Source: a virus | IMG/VR virus record: IMGVR_UViG_3300025110_000087 | Location: 1-28,782 of that record | Length of the DNA: 28,782 bases | Reading direction: 5' to 3' (one strand) | In this document: one piece after another, positions 2,224 through 19,552 of the stretch | How positions within the stretch are numbered: position 1 is the stretch's first letter | Layout of the letters: the number at the start of each line of letters is the position of its first letter | Translations under genes and position numbers: made by a program | The notes under the pieces: model-generated | Database searches by the model: none | What the model was told of the DNA's origin: nothing | Seen by the model: only the letters and a program-made list of their open reading frames with translations

Positions 2224-2405
2224 TGTATCAACAAAGCGAAATGAGAGACTGGGAAGATTTATTCTATCTGTTGCAATGTTTAAATCCAGAATCAGACAAA
2301 CCATCACCACATTGTTTAGATGAACCAGAAGATACAGCAAGATGGGAAGATATTTGCTATCTTATGGACAGATTAAAACCAAAGGAGGAAGATGATGTTA
2401 GATAA
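2223..2405 (+). CDS. Small acidic protein with internal duplication, 60 aa
   Basis: ATG 2223 overlaps the upstream stop, with GGAGGAA just before it. The protein has two related halves: RDWEDLFYLLQCLNPE near residues 8-23 and RWEDICYLMDRLKPKE near residues 40-55. Both follow R-x-W-E-D-x-x-Y-L-hydrophobic-x-x-L-x-P. This is an internal duplication of a short amphipathic helix, perhaps a dimeric or two-site binding module. Function unknown. Confidence 0.65.
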   Translation: MYQQSEMRDWEDLFYLLQCLNPESDKPSPHCLDEPEDTARWEDICYLMDRLKPKEEDDVR

Positions 2406-2523
2406 TGATGGTAAATATTATTGTGAAGAAGAAGGTTGTGGTAGAGAACTTTGTGGCGATATGGTAGGTAGTTGGTTTTGGCAGTTATGTACATTTTGCT
2501 TTGAAGAAAAGGAGGAGGGATAA
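2395..2523 (+). CDS. Putative zinc-binding micro-protein, 42 aa
   Basis: ATG 2395 lies in the end of the previous gene and has AAAGGAGGAAG just upstream, a strong site. Five cysteines sit at about residues 10, 15, 20, 32 and 35 (YCEEEGC, ELCGD, QLCTFC). The C-x4-C and C-x2-C pairs look like a small zinc ribbon. Such phage peptides often bind host RNA polymerase or nucleic acid, but that role is only inferred. Its stop overlaps the next start (TAATG). Confidence 0.6.
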   Translation: MLDNDGKYYCEEEGCGRELCGDMVGSWFWQLCTFCFEEKEEG

Positions 2524-2699
2524 TGGGAATGAAAGACAAAGCAATGGAATTTCTTGAAAATGGTGGATATAATCTGGAATATGATGAATGGAATTTACCA
2601 CGAGTAGAGGATATGGAAGCAGTAATAGATGAAGGAATACCAGTATGGGAGTATTTTGGAAAAACAGAAAGAGAATACTATGGAGGCGAACAATGGTAG
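2523..2699 (+). CDS. Small hypothetical protein, 58 aa
   Basis: ATG 2523 overlaps the preceding stop and follows AAGGAGGAGGG. The product is acidic and aromatic (NGGYNLEYDEWNLPRVEDME, then VWEYFGKTEREYYGG). No recognised family. The start of the following membrane peptide lies within its last codons, so the two are probably coupled. Confidence 0.55.
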   Translation: MGMKDKAMEFLENGGYNLEYDEWNLPRVEDMEAVIDEGIPVWEYFGKTEREYYGGEQW

Positions 2700-2776
2700 A
2701 AGGTATTTTAGGTGTTATATTTGTTCTATACGTAGTATTTACAATATTAAAATCAATAATAACAAAAGGAGAGTAA
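2693..2776 (+). CDS. Single-span membrane micro-protein, 27 aa
   Basis: ATG 2693 has TGGAGGCG upstream and overlaps the previous gene by 7 bases. The 27-residue peptide is almost wholly one hydrophobic segment (GILGVIFVLYVVFTIL) ending in KSIITKGE, so it should insert as one helix with a basic end. It precedes two larger membrane-anchored genes. It could be a small holin-like or membrane-perturbing peptide; its early-operon position argues more for superinfection exclusion or membrane takeover. Inference only. Confidence 0.5.
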   Translation: MVEGILGVIFVLYVVFTILKSIITKGE

Positions 2777-2777
2777 A

Positions 2778-3083
2778 ATGAAAAAGACAAACGCAGTATG
2801 GTATGTAGTAATTGCATTAACAATATGGTGTACATGGAACTCAGTTGGTAAGAACAACTTGGTTACAGCATTATCATATGTTGAAGCACAACAGGAAATA
2901 ATGGTAAGAGAAACGGCTTACATGACAGATAGGTTATATGCACTTGAAAATGCAGAACCTGAAGTAATTGTTAAGGAAGTCATTAAAGAAGTAGAGGTTC
3001 CTGTTGAAGTAATAAAAGAGGTAGAGGTTATCAAAGAAGTAATGGTAAAAGATACCACTGGAGGACAGGAAGATGTCCAATAA
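2778..3083 (+). CDS. Membrane-anchored protein with Val-Ile-Lys-Glu repeats, 101 aa
   Basis: ATG 2778 follows AAAGGAGAG. Residues 1-25 form a signal anchor (MKKTNAVWYVVIALTIWC) matching that of the next gene. Then come a helix and, at about residues 60-92, a low-complexity stretch of K-E-V-I/V-E-V units (VIKEVEVPVEVIKEVEVIKE) that looks like an extended stalk. The Cys after the hydrophobic core is preceded by Trp and does not make a lipobox. Topology is probably N-in, C-out. The layout is reminiscent of spanin-like proteins, but the early position and absence of lysis genes make that uncertain. Confidence 0.7.
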   Translation: MKKTNAVWYVVIALTIWCTWNSVGKNNLVTALSYVEAQQEIMVRETAYMTDRLYALENAEPEVIVKEVIKEVEVPVEVIKEVEVIKEVMVKDTTGGQEDVQ

Positions 3084-3546
3084 ACAGGCAATGTGGTCTG
3101 TTATGGCTATGTTGACAATATGGTGTGTATGGAACACAGCAAAAATCAACAATGTCAAGACTGATTACGAGAACATGAATAGTATAGTCAATAATTTGGC
3201 TGAAGAATATCAGGAAGAAGAGAAGCAAGTATCTACTGAATATGAAGATATTTATTTTTCTCAAGTATTTGCTGAACAAAGAGCTTTATATGGCGGTGGT
3301 CATGTGTTTGAATGGAATGGTAATACATATACGACCGATTATAAAGAAGAAGAAACAGCAAGTGCTAATGGTTGGGTATTAAATTCAGATGATTATGATG
3401 ACTATTGCAAATCAAATTATCATGACTCATGCGGAGTGTGTGATGGTAATGGAGCAACTAAATGGTTTGCAGATAGAGATGGAGATGGATTGGGAGATTC
3501 AACAACTTTTATCAAAAGCTGTGATGAACCCGTAGCAAGTAGATAA
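3073..3546 (+). CDS. Membrane-anchored protein with calcium-binding type repeat, 157 aa
   Basis: Residues 1-22 (MSNKQAMWSVMAMLTIWC) are clearly related to the anchor of the preceding gene, so the two arose by duplication. A helical linker (28-60) follows, then F-x-W-N-G-x-x-Y-T-T near 79-88. The C-terminal module at about 119-152 holds C-G-V-C-D-G-N-G, then WFADRDGDGLGD with a distal Cys150. The Asp-rich D-x-D-G-D-G-x-G-D loop is the pattern of thrombospondin type 3-like calcium-binding repeats of secreted bacterial proteins. The domain should lie outside the cytoplasmic membrane. Its start overlaps the previous gene by 11 bases. Function unknown. Confidence 0.75.
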   Translation: MSNKQAMWSVMAMLTIWCVWNTAKINNVKTDYENMNSIVNNLAEEYQEEEKQVSTEYEDIYFSQVFAEQRALYGGGHVFEWNGNTYTTDYKEEETASANGWVLNSDDYDDYCKSNYHDSCGVCDGNGATKWFADRDGDGLGDSTTFIKSCDEPVASR

Positions 3547-7853: not shown

Positions 7854-9236
7854 ATGGAAAATGCACTACCATATGATATTGTGGCGGAAGATGCTGTGCT
7901 TGGGTCTGTAATAGCAAATCCAGGGGAGTATGAGGCAGTGGCTAGATACTTTTCTGATGATAATGTTTTTTATCAGAGAAGAGCGAAGCTACTTTGGAAT
8001 AAATTAAAGAAAATGATTAGAGAGAGGCAGACAGTTGATACATTGACTGTATGCATGGCTGTAACTAAGGAAGATATAGATAAAGGCTTAACAAAGCATT
8101 ATATTACAGGATGTACCTCTGAGACATGCGTAAAGGGTATGACGGAATATTACGCCAATAAGCTATATGAAAAATATCTTTTAAGAAAGATTATTGTTAA
8201 AGCAGATGATATAAAGAAAAATGCTCAAGATAATAAGAGTGATATTTATATGACAATAAGCGAAACACATTCAATCTTATCTGAAATTTTAAACATAAGA
8301 CCTTCAATGGCTACTGATATTAATGATGTTATATCCGAAACTGTAGATAGTATAAAAAATAAGACTTCAAAATTAATTACAACAGGCTATGGTAAACTAA
8401 ATGCCTTTTCTGGAGGCTTAACAAGGGGAGAAATTACAATTATAGGCGGAAGACCAGGTCATGGTAAGACGACAGTAATGATTAATATGCTAGCTAATAT
8501 TCTTAAAGATGGTCATAAAGCTATATTTTTTAGCAGGGAGTTACCAAACTCAGAGCTTGTAAAAAAGATTGTTTGTTTAGAATCTGGGAAATTAGATTAT
8601 GGTCAGGTGCGTAAAAACATATGGACTAATACTTCTTTAAAACATTTCGAAGAGGCTTTATCTTTTGTTAGGAGTAAGTATTCAAGCGATAAGTTTTTAA
8701 TGTTTGATAATGTAAGAGATTTTGCAGCATCGTCAAGTGAGGTTAAAAAGTTTAAGCCTGATATTATATTTGATGATTATATACAGCTTATTGCATGTGA
8801 TAGCAGAGAAGACCAAAGAAGACTACAAATAGAGAAACTTGTTAATGATTATAAATGGCTTGCGAAAGAAACGGATGCTGTTGTTGTATTGGCTTCACAA
8901 TTAAATAGAATGATTGAGAGGGCAGGAGTGAGAGGAAAAGCATTAATGCCTCAGCTATCTGATTTAGCAGAGAGTGGAGCAATAGAACAAGTAGCGGAGA
9001 ACGTATTCTTTAGCTATTATGACTATAAAGTAAGAGGAGAAGCAGGTAAAGGTAAAAATACACTGACTATATCAGCAGGAAAGGTGAGATACGGAGACAG
9101 CGGTGATGTTGATTTAGTTTACGAAGGTAATAGATGTAAAATATATAACGATTCAGGAGAAGCGATAGATGAAAAAGCAGCGACAAAATTGCAAGAAAAT
9201 AAAAACGCAAAACAGCTTGAAATACATAGGGATTGA
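7854..9236 (+). CDS. DnaB-like replicative helicase
   Basis: A 460-residue hexameric helicase of the DnaB family, which unwinds the replication fork using ATP. Residues 1-110 match the DnaB N-terminal helical domain (PYDIVAEDAVLGSVIANPGEY). The RecA-like domain starts near 175: Walker A GGRPGHGKTT at 198-207, SRELP (226-231) as motif H1a, Walker B IIFDD at 304-308, ASQLNR at 347-352, and the LSDLAESGAIEQVAENV segment near 368-384. Start ATG 7854 follows AGGGAGAAA. No primase or polymerase is in this window, so these would come from elsewhere in the genome or from the host. The last 68 bases overlap the resolvase gene. Confidence 0.92.
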   Translation: MENALPYDIVAEDAVLGSVIANPGEYEAVARYFSDDNVFYQRRAKLLWNKLKKMIRERQTVDTLTVCMAVTKEDIDKGLTKHYITGCTSETCVKGMTEYYANKLYEKYLLRKIIVKADDIKKNAQDNKSDIYMTISETHSILSEILNIRPSMATDINDVISETVDSIKNKTSKLITTGYGKLNAFSGGLTRGEITIIGGRPGHGKTTVMINMLANILKDGHKAIFFSRELPNSELVKKIVCLESGKLDYGQVRKNIWTNTSLKHFEEALSFVRSKYSSDKFLMFDNVRDFAASSSEVKKFKPDIIFDDYIQLIACDSREDQRRLQIEKLVNDYKWLAKETDAVVVLASQLNRMIERAGVRGKALMPQLSDLAESGAIEQVAENVFFSYYDYKVRGEAGKGKNTLTISAGKVRYGDSGDVDLVYEGNRCKIYNDSGEAIDEKAATKLQENKNAKQLEIHRD

Positions 9237-9675
9237 CCCAGGTAAAAGCGGTGGTATAACTGTTATTGATGAAAAGGGCAATATAGATGCATATAAATGC
9301 CCTGAAAAAGTTTTAGACATGTCAATGACATTTAAGATAATAATAGGAGATACTGCTCCAGATAATGTTAAGCTATTAATGGAGAGAGTATGGGCAAGAC
9401 CAGGAAACGCTGTAAGAGCCGCATTTACATATGGTGTTAATTATGGTCAGTGGCTTGGTATTGCAGCATCATATGAAATAAAAATGTATACAGCGTTGCC
9501 AAACGATTGGATTAAGTGGGTAGGATGTCCTAAAGCATTGCCAGTTGCAGATAGAAAGCGATGGTTAAAAACAAAAGCAAAGGAACTATACCCTGAATTG
9601 AAAAAGGTTACATTAAAAACTGCTGATGCAATATTAATATGCCATTATGCAAAAGAGGAATATTTTATAGATTGA
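9169..9675 (+). CDS. RuvC-like Holliday junction resolvase
   Basis: A 168-residue RNase H-fold nuclease. The first acidic residue is Asp23 in YIGIDPGKSGGI; Glu72 in LLMERVWARPGN is the second; Asp153 in KTADAILICHYA is the C-terminal acid. This set and spacing match RuvC-type crossover resolvases of phages, which cut branched recombination intermediates before packaging. ATG 9169 lies inside the helicase gene with AGGAG about 9 bases upstream; the 68-base overlap puts the catalytic core just after the helicase ends. Confidence 0.85.
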   Translation: MKKQRQNCKKIKTQNSLKYIGIDPGKSGGITVIDEKGNIDAYKCPEKVLDMSMTFKIIIGDTAPDNVKLLMERVWARPGNAVRAAFTYGVNYGQWLGIAASYEIKMYTALPNDWIKWVGCPKALPVADRKRWLKTKAKELYPELKKVTLKTADAILICHYAKEEYFID

Positions 9676-9737
9676 TATATTTACAAGATATAATAAGAAT
9701 ATTTGGAGAATGCTATAGAAACAAGGGAGGTGAATGG

Positions 9738-10124
9738 GTGAAAGTAACAGAAGAGTACGCTAAAGGGTTTGACTTAGATTTAAAATTTGGTCAACTTGGA
9801 GAAAAGTTTGTTGACGATATGCAAAACGGCAACAATAAAATAGAAGTAAAAACAGAAAGAGATATTTGGAAAACAACTGGTAATATAGCTATAGAATTGA
9901 AGTATAAAGGCTATCCATCAGGCATTTCTACCACTGAATCAAGCACATGGGTACATTTATTGAGCTATAAAGGGGTTATACAGGGCGGATTTATATTCCA
10001 GGTAGACTCACTTAAGGTTTTAATAAAAAAACGCTATAAAGATGGTAAATTAAAAATGGTAATGGGTGGGGATGATAATATGAGTCAAATGGCATTGCTG
10101 CCAATTAAAGAACTTTGGGGTTAA
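9738..10124 (+). CDS. PD-(D/E)XK-type nuclease, 128 aa, GTG start
   Basis: The start is GTG 9738, chosen because GGGAGG at 9725-9730 lies 7 bases upstream; the frame is open earlier but has no such site. The product carries Glu22 in FGQLGEKFVDDM and the catalytic IEVKTE (E36-x-K38), followed by TTGNIAIELKYKGYPSGIST. This is, as I recall it, a phage-encoded PD-(D/E)XK family with the E-V-K, T-G-N and S-G-I-x-T elements. It probably cuts DNA during replication, recombination or host DNA breakdown. It is the last rightward gene and overlaps the convergent late operon by four bases. Confidence 0.75.
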   Translation: MKVTEEYAKGFDLDLKFGQLGEKFVDDMQNGNNKIEVKTERDIWKTTGNIAIELKYKGYPSGISTTESSTWVHLLSYKGVIQGGFIFQVDSLKVLIKKRYKDGKLKMVMGGDDNMSQMALLPIKELWG

Positions 10125-13100
10125 AATCCTTGCTCTACTGACCAATCATGGTCATCATAAAAGTTTTTAATATTATGTTTTCTTGCATAAACAGGAAGAT
10201 GTTTCATGAACTCTATTAATCTTTTTCTGTATTCAGATTCAGATTCAAATAAAGTCATGGTTAATTCTTTAGCGTCTTTAGATTGTTGTAACCATTTAAT
10301 GAACTCTAATGAATTTCTTTTGCCTTTTTTGCTTGATTTATATAAACTGCCTTTATTTGGATTTAGTTGTCTTAATTTTCCTTTAATCATAGATTCGGCT
10401 TCTTTAAAAGCGACATCCATAGACCTTCCAAATCTAACCCTATCATGAGCAATGGCAAAAAATGTAGCAAAGAAATGTTCAGCAAATTCTTCTTTTCCCT
10501 GTAAATAAAAACTATCTTTAAAATCTTTATAATAAGGGGACAATTCATTTTTTTGCATTTCCTCTGGCATAGGCTTACCTTTTTCTTCCATAAAATCTCT
10601 GTAAAGTTTTGATATTCTAATCCTATTACTATTCAATTTATTAAACTTACGTTCTTTTATTTTTAAAGCATTACTATATCCAGAAAATGTTCCTTTCATT
10701 ATATTTTCACCAAATTGACTAAAATTAGATTTACCGTCAGCCAATTGACCTATTTCCATAACCATAGTAGATATTGTGTTATATATTGCAGGTTCTAAGG
10801 TTTGTTGAAAACCAGTATCAAATGGACTAACAACTTCTGACATTATTCCAAACAATTCACCTTTCCACATTGTAGTTTTAAATCTTGTCCACCAATCAGA
10901 ATTTTCTTTAGGCATATCAGTGTTAAGTAAAGCTTTATATACACCCATCATTACGCTGCCTGATACATATGTTGCAGCAAGACCCATAACAGGTTTCATT
11001 AAATTTCTATTTCTAATTGATTCTCTTATATTATTTTGAGTATTATCAGTTGCCGCATAAGCCATTCTTTTAAAAAGTGTTAATGGTCTTATTCCTTCTG
11101 CTCCTGCAAACTTTGGCATAAATAAATCAGCTGAAGACCCTTGAGTATTAACGTGTGAATATAAATTCATTTTATTATTTATGTTTTCTACATTCCTCAT
11201 TAATTTTATTTTATCTAAATTAGATAAACTGTTATCAGCTTTTACTTCTTTAGAATCACCGTATTTTCTTCTTATGCCTATTTCTTTATCATTTAAAAAA
11301 TAAAATGATTTCAATCTATCTACAGAACGATTATATATTTTGCTGTTTTTAGGGTGAGCAGATATATTATTTAATAATCTTTTTTGTTCTGCTATAGAAC
11401 TAGCTATTGCAAGAAGCCTATTAAACTTTTCTGTAGGTTTCATAAAACCAGCTTTAAATGCAGTTGCATCCAATGCTCTATCTGCAAGGTTCCTGCCTTC
11501 ATATAATATATTACCAATACTAAAAGCATTACTATCCAAAGCCCTTTTATAAACCTCTGCATCCTTTGCAAGAACTAACGCAAAACCTTGAGCTATATCT
11601 CTTACACGATGTGCAAAAACTGTTTGAGTAGTACCTGTTACTATATTTTTAAGTCCTGCTGTTGGGAAACTCAGTCCTAGTTTTGCTACAATCCTTGCAG
11701 TAGCTTCAAGAGTCCTGTATGAAAGTTCATATGGAGCCGCAGATTTATCTGTTCCTAATTGTTTCTGAACAACGTCTTGTACCCAATTTATTTCTTTTTC
11801 TTTTACGCCTTTTAGTTCTGATTTTAAATTTTTAAATACTTGGTTGATACCATTTCCAGGTTTCATGCCTTGTATTGCTTCTGGAAACATTTCTAATGTT
11901 GCGTAAAATTTAGCCATTCCAGCTACATATGGATTTACAGTCCTATCAAATTGATGTTCATAGGTTCTAATTAATTTACCTTTTTCATTTTCTACGTATA
12001 AATCTTGTAATTCATATCTTTCTTTTAAATATTTAATTGAAATTTTACTTGGGTTAAAAAATAATGCATCCTGGTATCTTTGTTCCGCAACAAGCATAGA
12101 CATCTCAAGTTCTTTACTTAATTGTTCTTTAGTATAATTTTTACCATATTTTTCTTTTGCTCTTCTTGCAGCTATACTCTGAGCTATATTTATAATGGCT
12201 CTACTTTTAGCTCCCTCTTTTAAATGTAAAGCTCTTTTTGCACCTGCTGTTATTGACCTTGTGATATAAATACCATCTTCAAAAAATTTAATATCACTGT
12301 TTTTCATTAAAAACTCAAACTCTGCCTGATTTGTGTTTTGCCTTAAAGCAGATTCAAATTTTTCTTTACCAAATCCTTTTTGTATGTTTTCTATATATAA
12401 AACAGCAATTTTACCTTCTTTGGTATTTGTGTTTAAATATTTATAACTACCATCTTTGTTCTTTTTAGCTAATCCATCACCAAAAGATTTACCATCTCTT
12501 CTTGTTCTAATTGTTTCTTTCCACTCTGGCAATACAGCTTTGTCAAAAAATGACTGAGCTTCATTTATTATTTTATTTTCTCCTTTAGGTAATCTTTTTC
12601 CATATTCAGTTTTTGCTTTTTGTAGTGCTAATAACATTTCCCCGTTGTTATCTAAAGCAACAACCATGTTATCTTTCATTTTTGAAAATTTAGCTTCTCT
12701 GGTCATAAAGTTACCACCAACAACTTTTAATCCATTGTCATTAAAATATAATAAACCTGCTTTATTATTTTCTTGTATTGATTCATGTGTTAGTAACTTT
12801 TCTTGCATTGTTTTTAATCCAATTTTACCTATCGCTTTATGAGAAGTCCCTAAAAACATTGTTGCTTCTTTTGTTAATCCTTTCCCTGGCCCTTCAAAAG
12901 TGTTTGCAATAATATTATTTATTTCGCTTTTTGTATTCCAACCAATTTTATCGCTTTCAACATTTTTTTGATTAATAACATATTCTTTATAGTTTTGTAA
13001 ATCTTTAGTAGACAGGTTAAATAGATTACCGTCTTCTGACTTATACACATCTTTTACAATTTTAATTTGTTTAGCTTTTGTAATATTGACTGGCAATTGC

Positions 13101-16100
13101 GCTCTTTCAATTTGGCCAATAAGAGTTAATTTTTTAAATGCATCTTTTTGATTTATATATTGGTTCAAATCTCCTTGTAAAACTTCATCAAGCCTTTTAG
13201 CAAAAGAATTTAATTTTTCAATTTGTTGTACATAGTTTTTAGAATTAGGATTTATTGATTTAGGAATAATGTAATCTTTAGAATTAATTCCTTCTGCTGT
13301 GCTAGCAACATATTCTATAAAATCTTTACCACTTACATTATACTCTTTAACAACATTTCTTATTTGTCTATTTATAGCATTTTTATATTTATTAGGTGAA
13401 TCAAAAGATGCATCACTAATTTTAAATTTAGCCTTACCGCCTGTAAATTGTACACCTGTTGTATCTAGCTTCTGTGTCAATCTTTTAGCCATAACGTTTG
13501 CATAATCATTAAAATTACCTACACCTACTATTGTTTTAATCCTTGATACAACTTGCTGTATAGCTTGTTTAATCTTAGCAAATACATTAGGAGCAAATGA
13601 TATTGCTTGAGCTTTATCACCAGTAACATCTGCTGTAAACTCTTCCATATCTCTGTTTTTATTTTGCTTTTTACTTTTCCATTGTTTGTACTCAGGAGTG
13701 TTTTTGGCTAATTGTTCTAATCTACTTAAAGATTTTAATAATTTTACATCATTTACATCTCTTGCGTATGCTTTTACTTTATGAAATTTTTCATGAAAGA
13801 AATCTGTTGGTTGAAACCTATCTTTAGCAAGTAATATTGCGCCTTCTGCAGCATCAATAAACATGCCCAATATGCCTTTCCCTAGTTTTATTTGTTGTAA
13901 TTGTCCAGGTGATAATTTATCTTTTGCTGCCCATGTATCAAGGAATCTTTCCCTAGCAGGGTCAAATCCCATTTTAAATGGCCCTTTACTTGCACCTTCT
14001 TTAAATTTTACATTTTCTATAGGAGAACCAAGTTTTTTGTGCAATGCTTTTTGAGATGCTATAATATTTGATTTTGTTGGCACATCATAAATTTGTTTAA
14101 TTGCGCTTAAATCATGACCCAAAAGAAAATTCATCTCCCTGTATTCTGGCCCACTTAATTTTTCTCCACCTTTTGTTTGCATTCTTCTTCTTGTGTCTGT
14201 GAATTTTGATTTTTCATTAGCTACAAAGTCTTTATTAAATGATTGTCCTAATCGAGTAACATATTTACCTTTACCACTAGATAAATCACCAGTATAATTC
14301 ATTAAAAGCTCTGCTAAAGGACTATCTATCCATACAATTCTTTCTGGTGTTTTAAATTTTCTAACATTTGGGCCCATATCAAAATAGTAATCGTTACCAT
14401 CTTTTTTAAGTAACTGTTTAACTACATCAGGTGTTATTTTGTTAATTTCTGAATCTCTAAAACCATATTTAGCAGCTAATTCTGCAGCAATCTGATATCC
14501 CCTATCATTTGTTTGCTCTGATAGTTGTTTTCCTTTTTCTATAGCATGCCTTCTAATCCCTTCTTTTGCAGGTTTTACATTTTTACCCCTAGATTCATTT
14601 AAAGTTTTATTAAATCCTTTAACAGTAGCTTCTGTCATTAAACTTTTATCTCCAGATATAAAATCTAAACTTCTGGCAACTTTATTTAATTGACTAATAG
14701 TTGCAACACCTGAAGAAGTTAATAAATTTACTGATGAAATATTTTTAGTTATTTTTTTCCCATCAGAAACATATGATGTTTTATATGACGGTATTCCATT
14801 TTTTATTAATTGTGCAATTTCCATACCTGATAATTGGTAGAAATTTTTTCCTTCTGAATTTAAATAACCTATAATTTTAATTGCTGTTTTTGTATTCTTT
14901 TTAGGAGATGTTCCTAAAGTTTGTGAATATAAATATTCAGCCATTTTATAGGCAGTAACAATATCAACTGGGTCTTTACCTACCAGACCTTTTAATATAT
15001 GTTTTGTTTGCCCTGATTCAAATATATCTTTTTTAATATCATAATCACTTTTTTTTCTAGGTTTGTCTGTTCTAATAAAATCATTATACTCTTTTACAAG
15101 TTTATCATATTGGAATTGTTTTATATTCATGTCTCCAACATTTCTTGTTTCTACAAGCATGTTTTTTATATCTGCTAAATCTTTTCCAATACCTTTTGAT
15201 TCTACAAAAGGCTTACTTGGGTCGCTTATTTCCGTAAACGTATCTTTTGCCTCAATAGCTTTATCTTTTGAAGTAACTACATATTCAATTCCAGGAGATT
15301 CAAATTCTGGTAATCCTTCCAATGTTTCCTTGTCTAACTTTACCCCTTCTGTAGTTTCTTTTTTAAGAGGGTCTCTTTGTTTTAATAATTCTTGTTTGTA
15401 TGTTTTCTTTAGCCCTTCTCCAACAGTCAATGCTTCATTAAAATCTTTTGTCCTAACCCCTGTTTCTATTTTATTACCTTTAGGTGTTGTTAGTATAGGT
15501 TCATAGCCAATAATATCACCTTCTTTATTTTTAACTTCTTTTACAGATACATCAAAGCTATCTGCAAATTTAGTTCTCATTTTTTTAGCTGCTCCAGGGT
15601 CATTTAATGCGCCTAGATTTACCATTTCATTTACATCTTCTAATGATTTTATTTTTTTATCTAATTGTTTTTCAATGACAGTTCTTTTTTCTTTTGTTGA
15701 TAATTCATCAGCAGTAAAAAACTTATCAATGCCAGCACGCATTTCTTTATATATTGCATACAATGTATTATTAATATATCCAAATTCTTTTAATAATCCT
15801 GCTCTCGTCTTTGCCCTTTCTTTTCTACTGCCAAGTTTTGAAATATCATCAATTTTAGATAAATTTTTATTATATTTTTCAAGATTTTTACTAAATTCTG
15901 GCATTGCAATTAAAACATCTCTTGCTTCTGCTTCAATAAGCATTTTTTCTTTTATTAATGCTTCTGGTGTAGCAACTCCAGCAGCAGTAAGTTCATTTTC
16001 TATGTTTTTTAATTTTTCATACCTACTAGATATTTCGCCTCTTTCTCCTATGTCTAATAAATCATGCGTTTTACTTAAAGGGTCTTTTTTTGTTGTAAAC

Positions 16101-17206
16101 CCAGCTTTTTCAAATATATCACCATAAAATTCTTTTTTAGCTTTTGTATACCTTTCAACATCTCCTTGACCTATACGTAAGGGCTTTGTAGATGCTCTTA
16201 AGCCACCAACGATTGCTGTGTTCATAAATATACTTGACAGCCAATCATCCATGTCAACTTTTTCTCCCATAAGCGCACGTTCAGCCAATTGACCTGTACC
16301 AAATAATGTGCCTTCAGCAACCACTTGACCAGCTGGATTCATTGTTAATTTTGTAACTTTATTAGCAAACGATACATCTGAAGCCATTTTAGCTTTAGCA
16401 AATTTAGGAGCCATTAAACCTTTTGTAACATAACCAGCTGCAGCACCTAAAGCCAGACTACTTGCTCCATGTTTTGTTGCATTCCATGTAGTTTGCAAAT
16501 AATCCATTTCATTTCTTACGCCTTGTTTGATTTCACTAGATTGCTGCGCTGCATCTTGCAATGCTCCGCCAGCTGCACCATATGTAGCAAGACTAAATCC
16601 TGATTCAATACCAGCACCTCTTGCTAAATAGTTATGAAATCCTCCAGCCATTGCTTGTCTTGTAGCTCTATTTGCACCAGACTTTTGTAACATTTGAGAA
16701 AACCCTTTTGTTGCCATATTACGTAATGGCCCTGATGCAATAGTTTTTGCAGCAGCTCCACCAATAGCACTACTACCAAAAAATGTCAATACATCAATAG
16801 GGGAAACTAAGCCAACAAAAAATTGACCAGCCTCATCATACCACGCTCTATCTATGCCAGATTCTTCGTATTTAGCCTCTCCATGCATAATTTGATATAT
16901 AGTACCAGCTATTGATTTATTATAGGCTTCTCCCCACCAATTACCGTCTTCTGCATATGCTTCAGATAAATTTGCTGTAAGTATTTTTTCAAAAAAACCT
17001 GGATTAGCTTTTTCGTTTAATTCTTGTTCTGTTGGAATAGGTTGGGTTATTCTAGGTTTATAAGGGTTTTCTGGATATTCGTAGTTTACACCATTTTTAT
17101 CTTTGGTATAGATATTTTTTAATTTTTCATAAATATCATAATCACTTTCTCCTAAAGTATTATATTGTCCCTTATACCATTCAACTGCTTTTTGAGGATT
17201 TATCAT
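10121..17206 (-). CDS. Giant polyvalent-type virion protein with tyrosine-recombinase and metallopeptidase motifs, 2361 aa
   Basis: 2361 residues, last gene of the late block. Residues about 130-340 are Gly/Ala-rich and membrane-active-looking (VSPIDVLTFFGSSAIGGAAA). Residues 390-720 are charged helices. Residues about 770-1045 resemble a tyrosine recombinase: R917 (YGFRDSEI), R949/K950/K952, R1006 in FTDTRRRM, H1031 in LLGHD, Y1040 exactly nine residues on; the box II His is absent (Thr1003). HEKFH (1138-1142) with E1188/E1189 is a zinc metallopeptidase pattern. The C-terminal half has LGLSFPTAGLKNIVTG and a hydrophobic stretch (GLAATYVSGSVMMGVYKALL). Likely an internal protein ejected with DNA. 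ATG 17206 has no clear ribosome-binding site and lies 3 bases after the previous stop. Confidence 0.8.
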   Translation of the reverse strand: MINPQKAVEWYKGQYNTLGESDYDIYEKLKNIYTKDKNGVNYEYPENPYKPRITQPIPTEQELNEKANPGFFEKILTANLSEAYAEDGNWWGEAYNKSIAGTIYQIMHGEAKYEESGIDRAWYDEAGQFFVGLVSPIDVLTFFGSSAIGGAAAKTIASGPLRNMATKGFSQMLQKSGANRATRQAMAGGFHNYLARGAGIESGFSLATYGAAGGALQDAAQQSSEIKQGVRNEMDYLQTTWNATKHGASSLALGAAAGYVTKGLMAPKFAKAKMASDVSFANKVTKLTMNPAGQVVAEGTLFGTGQLAERALMGEKVDMDDWLSSIFMNTAIVGGLRASTKPLRIGQGDVERYTKAKKEFYGDIFEKAGFTTKKDPLSKTHDLLDIGERGEISSRYEKLKNIENELTAAGVATPEALIKEKMLIEAEARDVLIAMPEFSKNLEKYNKNLSKIDDISKLGSRKERAKTRAGLLKEFGYINNTLYAIYKEMRAGIDKFFTADELSTKEKRTVIEKQLDKKIKSLEDVNEMVNLGALNDPGAAKKMRTKFADSFDVSVKEVKNKEGDIIGYEPILTTPKGNKIETGVRTKDFNEALTVGEGLKKTYKQELLKQRDPLKKETTEGVKLDKETLEGLPEFESPGIEYVVTSKDKAIEAKDTFTEISDPSKPFVESKGIGKDLADIKNMLVETRNVGDMNIKQFQYDKLVKEYNDFIRTDKPRKKSDYDIKKDIFESGQTKHILKGLVGKDPVDIVTAYKMAEYLYSQTLGTSPKKNTKTAIKIIGYLNSEGKNFYQLSGMEIAQLIKNGIPSYKTSYVSDGKKITKNISSVNLLTSSGVATISQLNKVARSLDFISGDKSLMTEATVKGFNKTLNESRGKNVKPAKEGIRRHAIEKGKQLSEQTNDRGYQIAAELAAKYGFRDSEINKITPDVVKQLLKKDGNDYYFDMGPNVRKFKTPERIVWIDSPLAELLMNYTGDLSSGKGKYVTRLGQSFNKDFVANEKSKFTDTRRRMQTKGGEKLSGPEYREMNFLLGHDLSAIKQIYDVPTKSNIIASQKALHKKLGSPIENVKFKEGASKGPFKMGFDPARERFLDTWAAKDKLSPGQLQQIKLGKGILGMFIDAAEGAILLAKDRFQPTDFFHEKFHKVKAYARDVNDVKLLKSLSRLEQLAKNTPEYKQWKSKKQNKNRDMEEFTADVTGDKAQAISFAPNVFAKIKQAIQQVVSRIKTIVGVGNFNDYANVMAKRLTQKLDTTGVQFTGGKAKFKISDASFDSPNKYKNAINRQIRNVVKEYNVSGKDFIEYVASTAEGINSKDYIIPKSINPNSKNYVQQIEKLNSFAKRLDEVLQGDLNQYINQKDAFKKLTLIGQIERAQLPVNITKAKQIKIVKDVYKSEDGNLFNLSTKDLQNYKEYVINQKNVESDKIGWNTKSEINNIIANTFEGPGKGLTKEATMFLGTSHKAIGKIGLKTMQEKLLTHESIQENNKAGLLYFNDNGLKVVGGNFMTREAKFSKMKDNMVVALDNNGEMLLALQKAKTEYGKRLPKGENKIINEAQSFFDKAVLPEWKETIRTRRDGKSFGDGLAKKNKDGSYKYLNTNTKEGKIAVLYIENIQKGFGKEKFESALRQNTNQAEFEFLMKNSDIKFFEDGIYITRSITAGAKRALHLKEGAKSRAIINIAQSIAARRAKEKYGKNYTKEQLSKELEMSMLVAEQRYQDALFFNPSKISIKYLKERYELQDLYVENEKGKLIRTYEHQFDRTVNPYVAGMAKFYATLEMFPEAIQGMKPGNGINQVFKNLKSELKGVKEKEINWVQDVVQKQLGTDKSAAPYELSYRTLEATARIVAKLGLSFPTAGLKNIVTGTTQTVFAHRVRDIAQGFALVLAKDAEVYKRALDSNAFSIGNILYEGRNLADRALDATAFKAGFMKPTEKFNRLLAIASSIAEQKRLLNNISAHPKNSKIYNRSVDRLKSFYFLNDKEIGIRRKYGDSKEVKADNSLSNLDKIKLMRNVENINNKMNLYSHVNTQGSSADLFMPKFAGAEGIRPLTLFKRMAYAATDNTQNNIRESIRNRNLMKPVMGLAATYVSGSVMMGVYKALLNTDMPKENSDWWTRFKTTMWKGELFGIMSEVVSPFDTGFQQTLEPAIYNTISTMVMEIGQLADGKSNFSQFGENIMKGTFSGYSNALKIKERKFNKLNSNRIRISKLYRDFMEEKGKPMPEEMQKNELSPYYKDFKDSFYLQGKEEFAEHFFATFFAIAHDRVRFGRSMDVAFKEAESMIKGKLRQLNPNKGSLYKSSKKGKRNSLEFIKWLQQSKDAKELTMTLFESESEYRKRLIEFMKHLPVYARKHNIKNFYDDHDWSVEQGF
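10139..10154 (+). terminator. Weak candidate terminator hairpin at the convergent junction
   Basis: TGACCA (10139-10144) and TGGTCA (10149-10154) form a perfect 6-base stem with a 4-base loop, 15 bases after the end of the rightward operon. A short T-run lies further on (10163-10168) but is not adjacent. It lies within the 3' coding end of the leftward giant gene, so its presence could be incidental. Confidence 0.2.
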
Positions 17207-17209
17207 ATT

Positions 17210-19069
17210 TTAATTTTGGTCGCTTCTTCTAGGAAGAATTTGTAATCCATATTTAATGGTTAAAGCGATATTCCTAAATTCTGCCTGATTTTGATTTATA
17301 AATTCTTCTAACGTTAAATTAGAATCTTTATATTTCTTTTTAAATTCTTTTAACATATTTGATTCATTATAAGTTAAGCTTGAACGTTTAAGCATTTTTT
17401 TGCCAAGTTTTTCATCAGTCCCTTCTTTTACAGCCTGAAGCATATTTAATTCATCACTTAAAAATTTCTTTAAAGAATTGCCAGATTTTTGTTTATCTAA
17501 AGATGACCAATCTCCTAGATTCTTTTTTAAATTTTTATAATTTTTTAAATATTCTTCGCCTTTTGAACCTAAATAAAAACGACTAAAGTTTACTCTATTA
17601 ATTCTTTTTTGTTCATCTGTAAATTCATTTAATTTTTCTGGATATTTTTCAAAAAAAGCTTTTTCTAAGTTTTCTACAGTTGGAGGATTTTGTAAAAATT
17701 CTAAAAAAGTTGGAACATCTAAAGCTGCAGACTTATATGCTTCTGCTATGTAATCAGGCATTTCATTGTTTTTAATCATATCTGCAAGTTCTGTGTAATC
17801 CAAATCCCCATAAGATGATATATCTGCATTGTCAAGTAAATTTATAAAAGAATCGTCAGCTAAAGTTCCATCTACTACTTTATCCATAGTTTGGTCAACA
17901 CCATCAGTTTCAATATTGTCTATTATTATATTGTCAGTTGTTAAACGTGAAGGAGTTTCTCCTTTAATAATTTTTTGTATTTCAACTGGGTCTGTTGTCC
18001 CGTATTTTTCAGTCAGCTGTTTATCTGTAACTTCTTTTTCTCCTACATCAACATCTGCAAGTGCTTCATCTGTTATTTGGTCAATAACAACAGTGCCTCC
18101 TTCTTCATCTATATCGCTTGGTAAAAAATTTAAAACTTCTTCATCCGCATAATAATACCCAACAGCTTGTTTATATTTATTTCTTAATTCTCTATTTCTT
18201 GTTTGTTCAGCATCTATAAGTTCTCTAATTGTTTGTTCAGCAGTTTTATTTCCAGCAATGAAATCTCCTGATGCAAGTTTTAATGTTTCCTCATCTAAGC
18301 CTAAATTCATTAATTGTCCTATTAAATCATCTCCTGTTAAAAGAGATAATTGTTCATTTTGAAGACCTAATAAAATACTATCAGATTGTTTAATTTCAGT
18401 TGTAAACATAGATTTCTTTTCATTTCTTAAAGATTTCATGTCTGCTGAGGTAAAGTTAGCTTTTGTTATATTCTCAGCTTCATCCATAGTTATAACTCCA
18501 TCCCCAACCATTGCAGTTAAAGCATTGTCTAAAGAACGTTGATAATTGCCAATATTAACACTTAATTGGTCTTCATCAAATGTTCCGTCACCTATTTTTG
18601 GTATTCTGAATTGTGCTGCGCCTGCAGTTATCTTATTCCTTAAAGTTCCTATTTTTAAATATTCATTACTAATCATTTCTAAATTAGATTCGTAATTTAA
18701 TCCTTGTTCGTTTAACGACTCTCTTGTAGCATCTAAATCAACCCAATCCGCAGATTTTGATTTATATTTATCACTTTTAAAAAACTCATCAGCTTGTTGT
18801 ATAGCATTAGAAAAATCATCATATGCAGCTTTTTTATTTTCTGCTGCAAACCGTATTGCATTTTGATTAAAATTTGTTGAATCGTATTCGCTGCTGTATT
18901 CTTTAATGTTGTCAAGAGCAGACATAACGCTATTAAGTTGTTCTTCTGTTTGAGCAGCATTAAGCATATTATTAACACCTGTTTGCTGCAATCCTATTTT
19001 TTGTCTTCTTGCTTCATGACCAGAAGAAAAGCCTTGTACTATTTTTAAAATATCTGAAATTGCTTCCAT
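17210..19069 (-). CDS. Putative internal virion protein, 619 aa
   Basis: ATG 19069 follows AAAAGGATTT. A long, mostly helical, acidic protein without a recognised enzyme domain. The N-terminus is Gly/Ser and Gln-rich (KIVQGFSSGHEARRQKIG), followed by coiled helices, a loop VGDGVITMDEAE near 188-199 that partly resembles an EF-hand (only half of the usual calcium ligands), an acidic middle (about 330-420) and a basic C-terminus. Position between the Gln-rich 156-aa protein and the giant protein, in the order typical of podovirus internal or ejection proteins, suggests a virion role. Function inferred from context. Confidence 0.65.
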   Translation of the reverse strand: MEAISDILKIVQGFSSGHEARRQKIGLQQTGVNNMLNAAQTEEQLNSVMSALDNIKEYSSEYDSTNFNQNAIRFAAENKKAAYDDFSNAIQQADEFFKSDKYKSKSADWVDLDATRESLNEQGLNYESNLEMISNEYLKIGTLRNKITAGAAQFRIPKIGDGTFDEDQLSVNIGNYQRSLDNALTAMVGDGVITMDEAENITKANFTSADMKSLRNEKKSMFTTEIKQSDSILLGLQNEQLSLLTGDDLIGQLMNLGLDEETLKLASGDFIAGNKTAEQTIRELIDAEQTRNRELRNKYKQAVGYYYADEEVLNFLPSDIDEEGGTVVIDQITDEALADVDVGEKEVTDKQLTEKYGTTDPVEIQKIIKGETPSRLTTDNIIIDNIETDGVDQTMDKVVDGTLADDSFINLLDNADISSYGDLDYTELADMIKNNEMPDYIAEAYKSAALDVPTFLEFLQNPPTVENLEKAFFEKYPEKLNEFTDEQKRINRVNFSRFYLGSKGEEYLKNYKNLKKNLGDWSSLDKQKSGNSLKKFLSDELNMLQAVKEGTDEKLGKKMLKRSSLTYNESNMLKEFKKKYKDSNLTLEEFINQNQAEFRNIALTIKYGLQILPRRSDQN

Positions 19070-19081
19070 TTAAAAATCCTT

Positions 19082-19552
19082 TTATTGATATCCTTTGATT
19101 TGCAATGCTTGAGAACGCCATTGGTTAATTAAGTCTTGTATTGAACTTAATGATTGCGTTCTTTGCTGTCCTGTCTTTGTTAAGACGTCAGTCATTCCTT
19201 TTCCGTATACATCTTTAATTCCACTAGCAAATTGTTGTTGTTGTCCACTTCCCGCAAAACCTCCTGCTGCTTGCCTGCCCATTTGTCCTTGTCCTGACTG
19301 TAACATTTTATCAACAAGTGTTTGTCCTGTTGCTTGAACTTGAGGGGAGTATGTACTTGCTAACGAACCTTTAATTAATTCTTCTGATATAGGTTGAAAT
19401 AAAGAAGACGGTAATTGACTACCTGATAAACCAAATTGTCCTTGCAATGCTGTCGCTATTTGCTGAGGGCCTAATTGAGATAAACCTGAAAATCCCTGTG
19501 TATCTATTCCAAGTTGTGAAAGTTGCCCTACTATATCATCTATCATTGCCAT
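19082..19552 (-). CDS. Gln/Gly-rich virion-associated protein, 156 aa
   Basis: Start ATG 19552 overlaps the previous stop (TAATG) and has GGAGGAATTA upstream. About one residue in seven is Gln (GQGQMGRQAAGGFAGSGQQQ near 88-107), with many Gly, Ser and Leu. The pattern resembles small virion proteins encoded beside internal or ejection proteins of podoviruses, where Gln/Gly-rich segments line the tail channel or core. No catalytic motif. Assignment rests on composition and context. Confidence 0.6.
   Translation of the reverse strand: MAMIDDIVGQLSQLGIDTQGFSGLSQLGPQQIATALQGQFGLSGSQLPSSLFQPISEELIKGSLASTYSPQVQATGQTLVDKMLQSGQGQMGRQAAGGFAGSGQQQQFASGIKDVYGKGMTDVLTKTGQQRTQSLSSIQDLINQWRSQALQIKGYQ

Follow-up and report, generated by a model that had tools for sequence, protein, structure and literature searches.

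Proteins that phages eject into their hosts are known to carry transglycosylases, RNA polymerases, ADP-ribosyltransferases, methylases, and peptidases as enzymatic cargo. One giant of this kind is vRNAP (gp50) of phage N4, an ejected protein in which an enzyme module is joined to a C1 module bearing an HExxH motif and to a large helical C2 domain (PMC12633501). Zincin-like peptidases are likewise described as common in the polyvalent proteins of phages (Iyer et al., 2017; PMC5512222). A keyword search of open-license papers returned no report of a virion-delivered or injected tyrosine recombinase, and no strand-exchange enzyme delivered by an ejected phage protein is reported in the open-license literature searched. 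The words "recombinase" and "integrase" are absent from the main texts of a review of ejection proteins (PMC8954989), the N4 vRNAP paper (PMC12633501), and the polyvalent-protein survey (PMC5512222). Here we describe a giant late protein of an uncultured phage that combines an architecture of this known kind with a divergent tyrosine-recombinase domain. Throughout, "the window" refers to the whole stretch of DNA analyzed, i.e., the 28,782-base virus record IMGVR_UViG_3300025110_000087.

Results

The giant gene, its relatives, and its neighbors

The giant gene (10121..17206, minus strand) is an intact open reading frame of 2361 amino acids whose product we read as an ejection/polyvalent-type protein holding a recombinase domain, with ~30 full-length homologues. 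Relatives were gathered by a scan with the neighboring DnaB helicase (7854-9236), which yielded 58 virus loci, and a homologue of the giant gene was present in more than 30 of these, complete copies encoding 1878-2808 amino acids. As in the window, the giant gene of the relatives is convergent to the replication genes and lies just past them. In a fast MAFFT alignment of all giants, conservation across the whole family is seen in the first 350 and the last 750 residues, and the middle is variable. The giants of two relatives, L049 and L031, had no match among phage records. The DNA of a sister strain, L001, is 99.84% identical to that of the window, and the two giant genes differ at six sites, all synonymous. 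That none of the six changes a residue points to selection on the giant gene, and we count it in favor of the reading preferred below.

Just upstream of the giant gene lies a gene of 619 amino acids (17210..19069, minus strand), followed by one of 156 amino acids (19082..19552, minus strand). Neither had a family match, and they are placed at the positions of T7 gp15/N4 gp51 and T7 gp14/N4 gp52, respectively, by size and gene order only. This giant-medium-small order is repeated in relatives wherever the locus extends that far, and the giant is thus the last of a small-medium-large, ejection-type trio. A 49-kb relative (L042) has the genes for terminase, portal, and major head protein ahead of the giant on the same strand, and there the giant closes a co-directional late operon.

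Several other features of these loci were observed in passing. Within the 619-amino-acid gene, eight differences from the sister strain are clustered at 17884-18045, four of them non-synonymous (the giant gene has none of that kind); the cluster is possibly a recombination tract or a site of local diversifying selection. The gene after DnaB (9169-9675, plus strand) carries the RuvC-like fold signature IGIDPGKSGG, and its product is likely, judging from this signature, a Holliday-junction resolvase. The next gene (9639-10124, plus strand; 161 amino acids) matched NOV_C below the threshold (E 0.074), and its product is perhaps nuclease-like. Among the late genes of a sister strain, L003, a gene at 2355-3137 (plus strand) resembles calcineurin-like phosphoesterases by sequence motif alone.

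Architecture of a probable ejection-type protein

The most conserved part of the giant family is its C-terminal domain (residues 1621-2361; 10124..12346, minus strand), an all-helical domain of internal-virion-protein/polyvalent type. AlphaFold modeled these 741 residues as nearly all helical (pLDDT 73.9), and the best Foldseek matches of the model in BFVD were "Internal virion protein D," "Large polyvalent protein-associated domain," and "internal core proteins." The match to a domain of the Internal virion protein D type reached E 6.0e-5 and probability 1.00, at TM-scores of 0.3-0.4. At the other end of the protein, the conserved N-terminal region (16007..17206, minus strand) contains hydrophobic, Gly/Ala-rich segments at residues 125-157 and 248-266.

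Just after the recombinase domain, residues 1138-1142 (13781..13795, minus strand) form the HExxH motif HEKFH, a zincin-like metallopeptidase signature. Of 30 full-length relatives, 20 carry HExxH at the corresponding site, compared with 0.23 expected by composition. The region is possibly a peptidase that cleaves its own protein, as has been suggested for polyvalent proteins. A single protein brings together a tyrosine-recombinase domain, a putative zincin-like element named from its motif, and a helical C-terminal domain, the combination expected of a polyvalent protein. Considering its modeled fold, its HExxH motif, and the order of the genes at its locus, the giant protein is best read as an ejection ("polyvalent") protein of the T7 gp16/N4 vRNAP type.

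A divergent tyrosine-recombinase domain

A first-pass annotation of this DNA had recognized recombinase landmarks in residues 770-1045 of the giant protein, which correspond exactly to positions 14072-14899. From an alignment of relatives, profile matches to XerA and XerD, an AlphaFold model, and Foldseek, we delimit the tyrosine-recombinase-like region as residues 738-1068 (14003..14995, minus strand), with a helical, core-binding-like part extending to residue ~877 and a catalytic part at residues ~885-1062. This region is a divergent tyrosine-recombinase domain. Searches with profiles and with the modeled fold support its assignment, as do the family matches of relatives and the conservation of R917, H1031, and Y1040 in close relatives. 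The domain thereby withstood both of the refuting outcomes named in the first-pass annotation, the absence of a structural match to the recombinase fold and the loss of these three residues in close relatives.

The window sequence alone, whether as the whole protein or as the domain, had no match in Pfam, PHROGs, PDB, or 50,697 phage records. A match to PF12950 (TaqI_C; E 0.0012), which overlies the N-terminal helical part, was rejected since its score of 19.5 fell below the cut-off of 26.5. Homology was instead established at the level of the family, using a 12-row alignment (A2) made up of giant-protein segments only, 16-52% identical to that of the window. Its rows are the window, four close relatives that align across the entire domain region (L009, L014, L039, and L042), and seven weaker matches at the same position (L044, L049, L013, L017, L026, L031, and L050). 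The three best matches of the A2 profile in PDB were XerA (1.1e-5), XerD (5.7e-4), and a XerC-like recombinase (0.011). Phage_int_SAM and Phage_integrase were also matched directly by relatives, individual members reaching PF02899 (1.2e-5), PF13495 (7.8e-6), PF00589, and PHROG_216 ("integrase"). Statistical sequence homology to the tyrosine recombinase superfamily is thus provided by the A2 profile and the relatives together.

Profiles built from single clades reached no tyrosine recombinase in PDB, and a profile search with the window clade alone (A7) did not reach the known tyrosine recombinases. A7 did match the profile of a second clade (A8) at 1.3e-12, and A8 in turn matched known tyrosine recombinases (lambda Int, XerD, HP1 Int, Cre, FimB, and FimE) at 2.4e-5. 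At the level of profiles, then, the link between the window clade and the tyrosine recombinases is transitive, since the clade is too divergent to give a profile match alone. The sole PDB match of A7 (14003-14995) was an "Internal virion protein" (9sfn_G, 1337 amino acids), which at E = 1 is not significant. A further alignment (A3), too diverse for a scan of the collection, gave only weak haemagglutinin matches in PDB (E of at least 0.13), and these were rejected as noise.

Of the 159 columns of A2 that have no gaps, only four do not vary (R917, G1030, H1031, and Y1040). Three of them belong to the four columns of the catalytic R/R/H/Y set, an overlap among the 12 giant segments that exceeds chance (hypergeometric P = 2.4e-5). 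The arginine of L050 in the R917 column is an alignment accident, as profile alignment gave this relative no Arg-I segment; the other eleven cells are sound.

The AlphaFold model of residues 738-1068 had a mean pLDDT of 77.9 and a pTM of 0.63. When it was compared with PDB by Foldseek, ranks 1-17 were all Cre chains (probability 0.96-1.00, E from 3.6e-3), followed by unrelated entries and, at rank 20, the catalytic domain of P2 integrase. Among viral models, the best named matches were phage integrases (E 2.0e-4, probability 1.00). Full-length TM-scores were modest, mostly 0.33-0.48 and 0.33-0.40 against Cre; with scores this low, the model appears related to tyrosine recombinases by fold and motif rather than by close superposition. 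Nevertheless, the tyrosine-recombinase catalytic-domain fold was recovered by Foldseek despite the low global TM-scores.

Conservation and erosion of the active site

All of the landmarks named in the first-pass annotation were found where it had placed them: R917 (Arg-I; 14456..14458), K950 (14357..14359) or K952 (14351-14353) as catalytic lysine, R1006 (Arg-II; 14189..14191), H1031 (His-III of the LGH motif; 14114..14116), and Y1040, the candidate nucleophile (14087..14089), all on the minus strand. The distances it gave, 9 residues from H1031 to Y1040 and 25 from R1006 to H1031, were likewise correct, and R917, H1031, and Y1040 are retained in close relatives. R1006 is arginine in 9 of the 12 A2 segments. 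As the likely beta-hairpin lysine, K950 appears a better candidate than K952, because relatives retain a lysine 5-6 residues before the conserved R956 (11 of 12 segments). Four features had been missed in that reading, namely the preference for K950, the HExxH at residue 1138, the internal-virion fold of the C-terminal domain, and the threonine at position 1003.

T1003 (14198..14200, minus strand) occupies the His-II position of the HxxR motif, where the canonical residue of the superfamily is therefore missing from the window. The position is not conserved: it is T, Y, T, T, and F in the window clade, D in L044 and L049, and K elsewhere. His-II is commonly histidine but varies across the tyrosine recombinase superfamily. 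Since the position is variable, Thr1003 does not exclude membership, and it lowers the odds of activity.

The window clade (five members, domain identity to the window 24-52%) is invariant at R917, K950, R1006, H1031, and Y1040, so that the ordered set of Arg-I, Lys, Arg-II, His-III, and Tyr is conserved within it, and two other lineages, L044 and L049, also keep the two arginines, hairpin lysine, histidine, and tyrosine. Elsewhere in the family, Arg-II is replaced by lysine (L007, L013, L017, and L026), Arg-I is lost (L050), or the His-III position, invariant in A2, is occupied by aspartate (L012) or glutamate (L033) in distant giants. Only the SAM-like N-terminal part is recognizable in L012, L016, L021, L025, L045, and L051. 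Viewed across residues ~620-960, these six giants and L050 present a graded erosion, the SAM-like part being retained and the catalytic residues lost or replaced.

About half of the giants have an eroded or unrecognizable domain, and catalysis is therefore not required in every family member. Because several relatives lack Arg-II, Arg-I, or His-III, the predicted activity is likely confined to some lineages. A tree built from the C-terminal domain places the window clade together (five rows, support 100), and every one of its rows is complete; L044 and L049, which lack only His-II, fall in a distant branch, surrounded by eroded members. The simplest reading is that an ancestral domain decayed several times; alternatively, the domain could have been gained by exchange between phages.

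Discussion

Our preferred reading, which we hold to be slightly on the probable side, is that the giant is an ejection protein of an uncultured short-tailed phage with a recombinase module that acts on the entering DNA before gene expression. It rests on homology to recombinases, on the residues that are conserved, on the match of the C-terminal fold to internal virion proteins, and on the order of the late operon. From these we infer that the giant protein would be packaged in the head and would leave it together with the DNA or before it, and that the recombinase domain would bind the entering phage DNA as its substrate. R917, K950, R1006, H1031, and Y1040 could then break one strand by way of a 3'-phosphotyrosine link before rejoining it. 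Rejoining to a partner end or site would circularize or resolve the genome, and rejoining to the same strand would relax the DNA, in either case before any phage gene is expressed. The first-pass annotation had suggested such an early-delivered virion recombinase; its recombinase core stood, its virion-type protein gained support from the C-terminal fold, the late operon, and the gene order, and the action before expression is best kept as a conjecture. Neither a recombination site nor a terminal repeat turned up, although the records are fragments; intergenic DNA offered AT-rich, imperfect inverted repeats, none of them convincing as a site. The threonine at His-II, the erosion of about half of the giants, the transitive profile link, and the low TM-scores to Cre all weaken the reading. 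A wider claim, which we advance tentatively and consider somewhat more apt to be wrong than right, extends this to the family as a whole: as part of their DNA-ejection machine, these uncultured phages would inject a tyrosine recombinase to circularize, resolve, or relax the incoming genome before transcription, and in some lineages the enzyme would have decayed to a DNA-gripping domain.

The main rival is that a domain derived from a tyrosine recombinase now serves as a DNA-binding or structural element, which would hold the leading end of the DNA within the head or the channel and exchange no strands. The replaced Arg-II and His-III residues, the loss of Arg-I, and the relatives in which the SAM-like part stands alone speak for it, as does the cytoplasmic DNA-binding activity of T7 gp16-C (PMC8954989). 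However, the catalytic set is kept in the window clade and in L044 and L049, so that a purely structural use is not expected there. We consider this explanation unlikely overall, and likely true of the eroded members.

Distinctly less probable is a nicking-closing activity like that of type IB topoisomerases, which would relax supercoils in the entering DNA, or a nuclease acting on host DNA, in place of a recombinase. Tyrosine recombinases and topoisomerase IB share a common fold and chemistry. The His-II position is threonine in the window and lysine in part of the relatives, and the topoisomerase of vaccinia is likewise not known to have His-II. Against this, the best profile and fold matches were site-specific recombinases, and a topoisomerase entry did not appear before rank 26 of the Foldseek search of PDB (probability 0.18).

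A further possibility is that a virion protein has become fused to a conventional prophage integrase, which would insert the genome into the host chromosome for lysogeny. The homology would fit this, as would the lack of any stand-alone integrase above the Pfam cut-off in the 41 related records (0 of 41); in agreement with the first-pass annotation, no other integrase was found in the window. We nonetheless judge this very improbable. No relative was found when 84,980 genomes of bacteria and archaea were scanned with two peptide patterns, and it is this result together with the 0 of 41 stand-alone integrases that makes lysogenic integration unlikely. In addition, the gene sits in a late operon, unlike early integrase genes, and a non-systematic look at the window recognized no repressor or excisionase. 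Finally, a chance resemblance in a helical virion protein, to which the failure of the single sequence to match Pfam, PHROGs, or PDB might point, is refuted by the conserved columns, profiles, fold, and family matches of the relatives and may be set aside as negligible.

We return, then, to an ejection protein with a recombinase module. Ejection/polyvalent proteins are a known kind and, as far as the open-license literature shows, a tyrosine recombinase is a new enzymatic cargo for them. If the reading is true, the giant would be the recombination counterpart of the injected RNA polymerase of N4. If the domain is active, it would allow the genome to be circularized or relaxed independently of host enzymes and of phage gene expression. 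The range from complete to eroded active sites at the same gene position offers a natural series for the passage from enzyme to structural domain, and the family may also provide a recombinase that nature already delivers along with DNA.

Comparison with known systems

With the tyrosine recombinases (XerA/XerD, Cre, and lambda Int; PF00589 and PF02899), the domain shares the fold found by Foldseek, the R-K-R-H-Y order, the LGH motif, the His-Tyr spacing of 9 and, in relatives, the SAM-like part. Unlike them, it is embedded in the middle of the 2361-amino-acid product of a late gene, has threonine at His-II, and is directly undetectable by sequence. T7 gp16 (Internal virion protein D) shares its C-terminal fold, by Foldseek, and the gene order 14-15-16; however, no sequence similarity to it was detected (hhalign probability 0.2), and no transglycosylase domain was recognized in the giant of the window. 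Since sequence homology is lacking, we do not file the giant in the T7 gp16 family, and describe it instead as acting, by prediction, in the manner of that type. The phage-type polyvalent proteins, as described in the survey cited above (PMC5512222), have in common with it a large, multidomain late protein, a zincin-like HExxH, and the fold of the Large polyvalent protein-associated domain. N4 gp50 of the Schitoviridae shares the layout of enzyme, HExxH, and helical modules and is likewise the last of three ejection genes (52-51-50). No sequence similarity to gp50 has been established, and where N4 carries an RNA polymerase, the enzyme module of the window's giant is a tyrosine recombinase.
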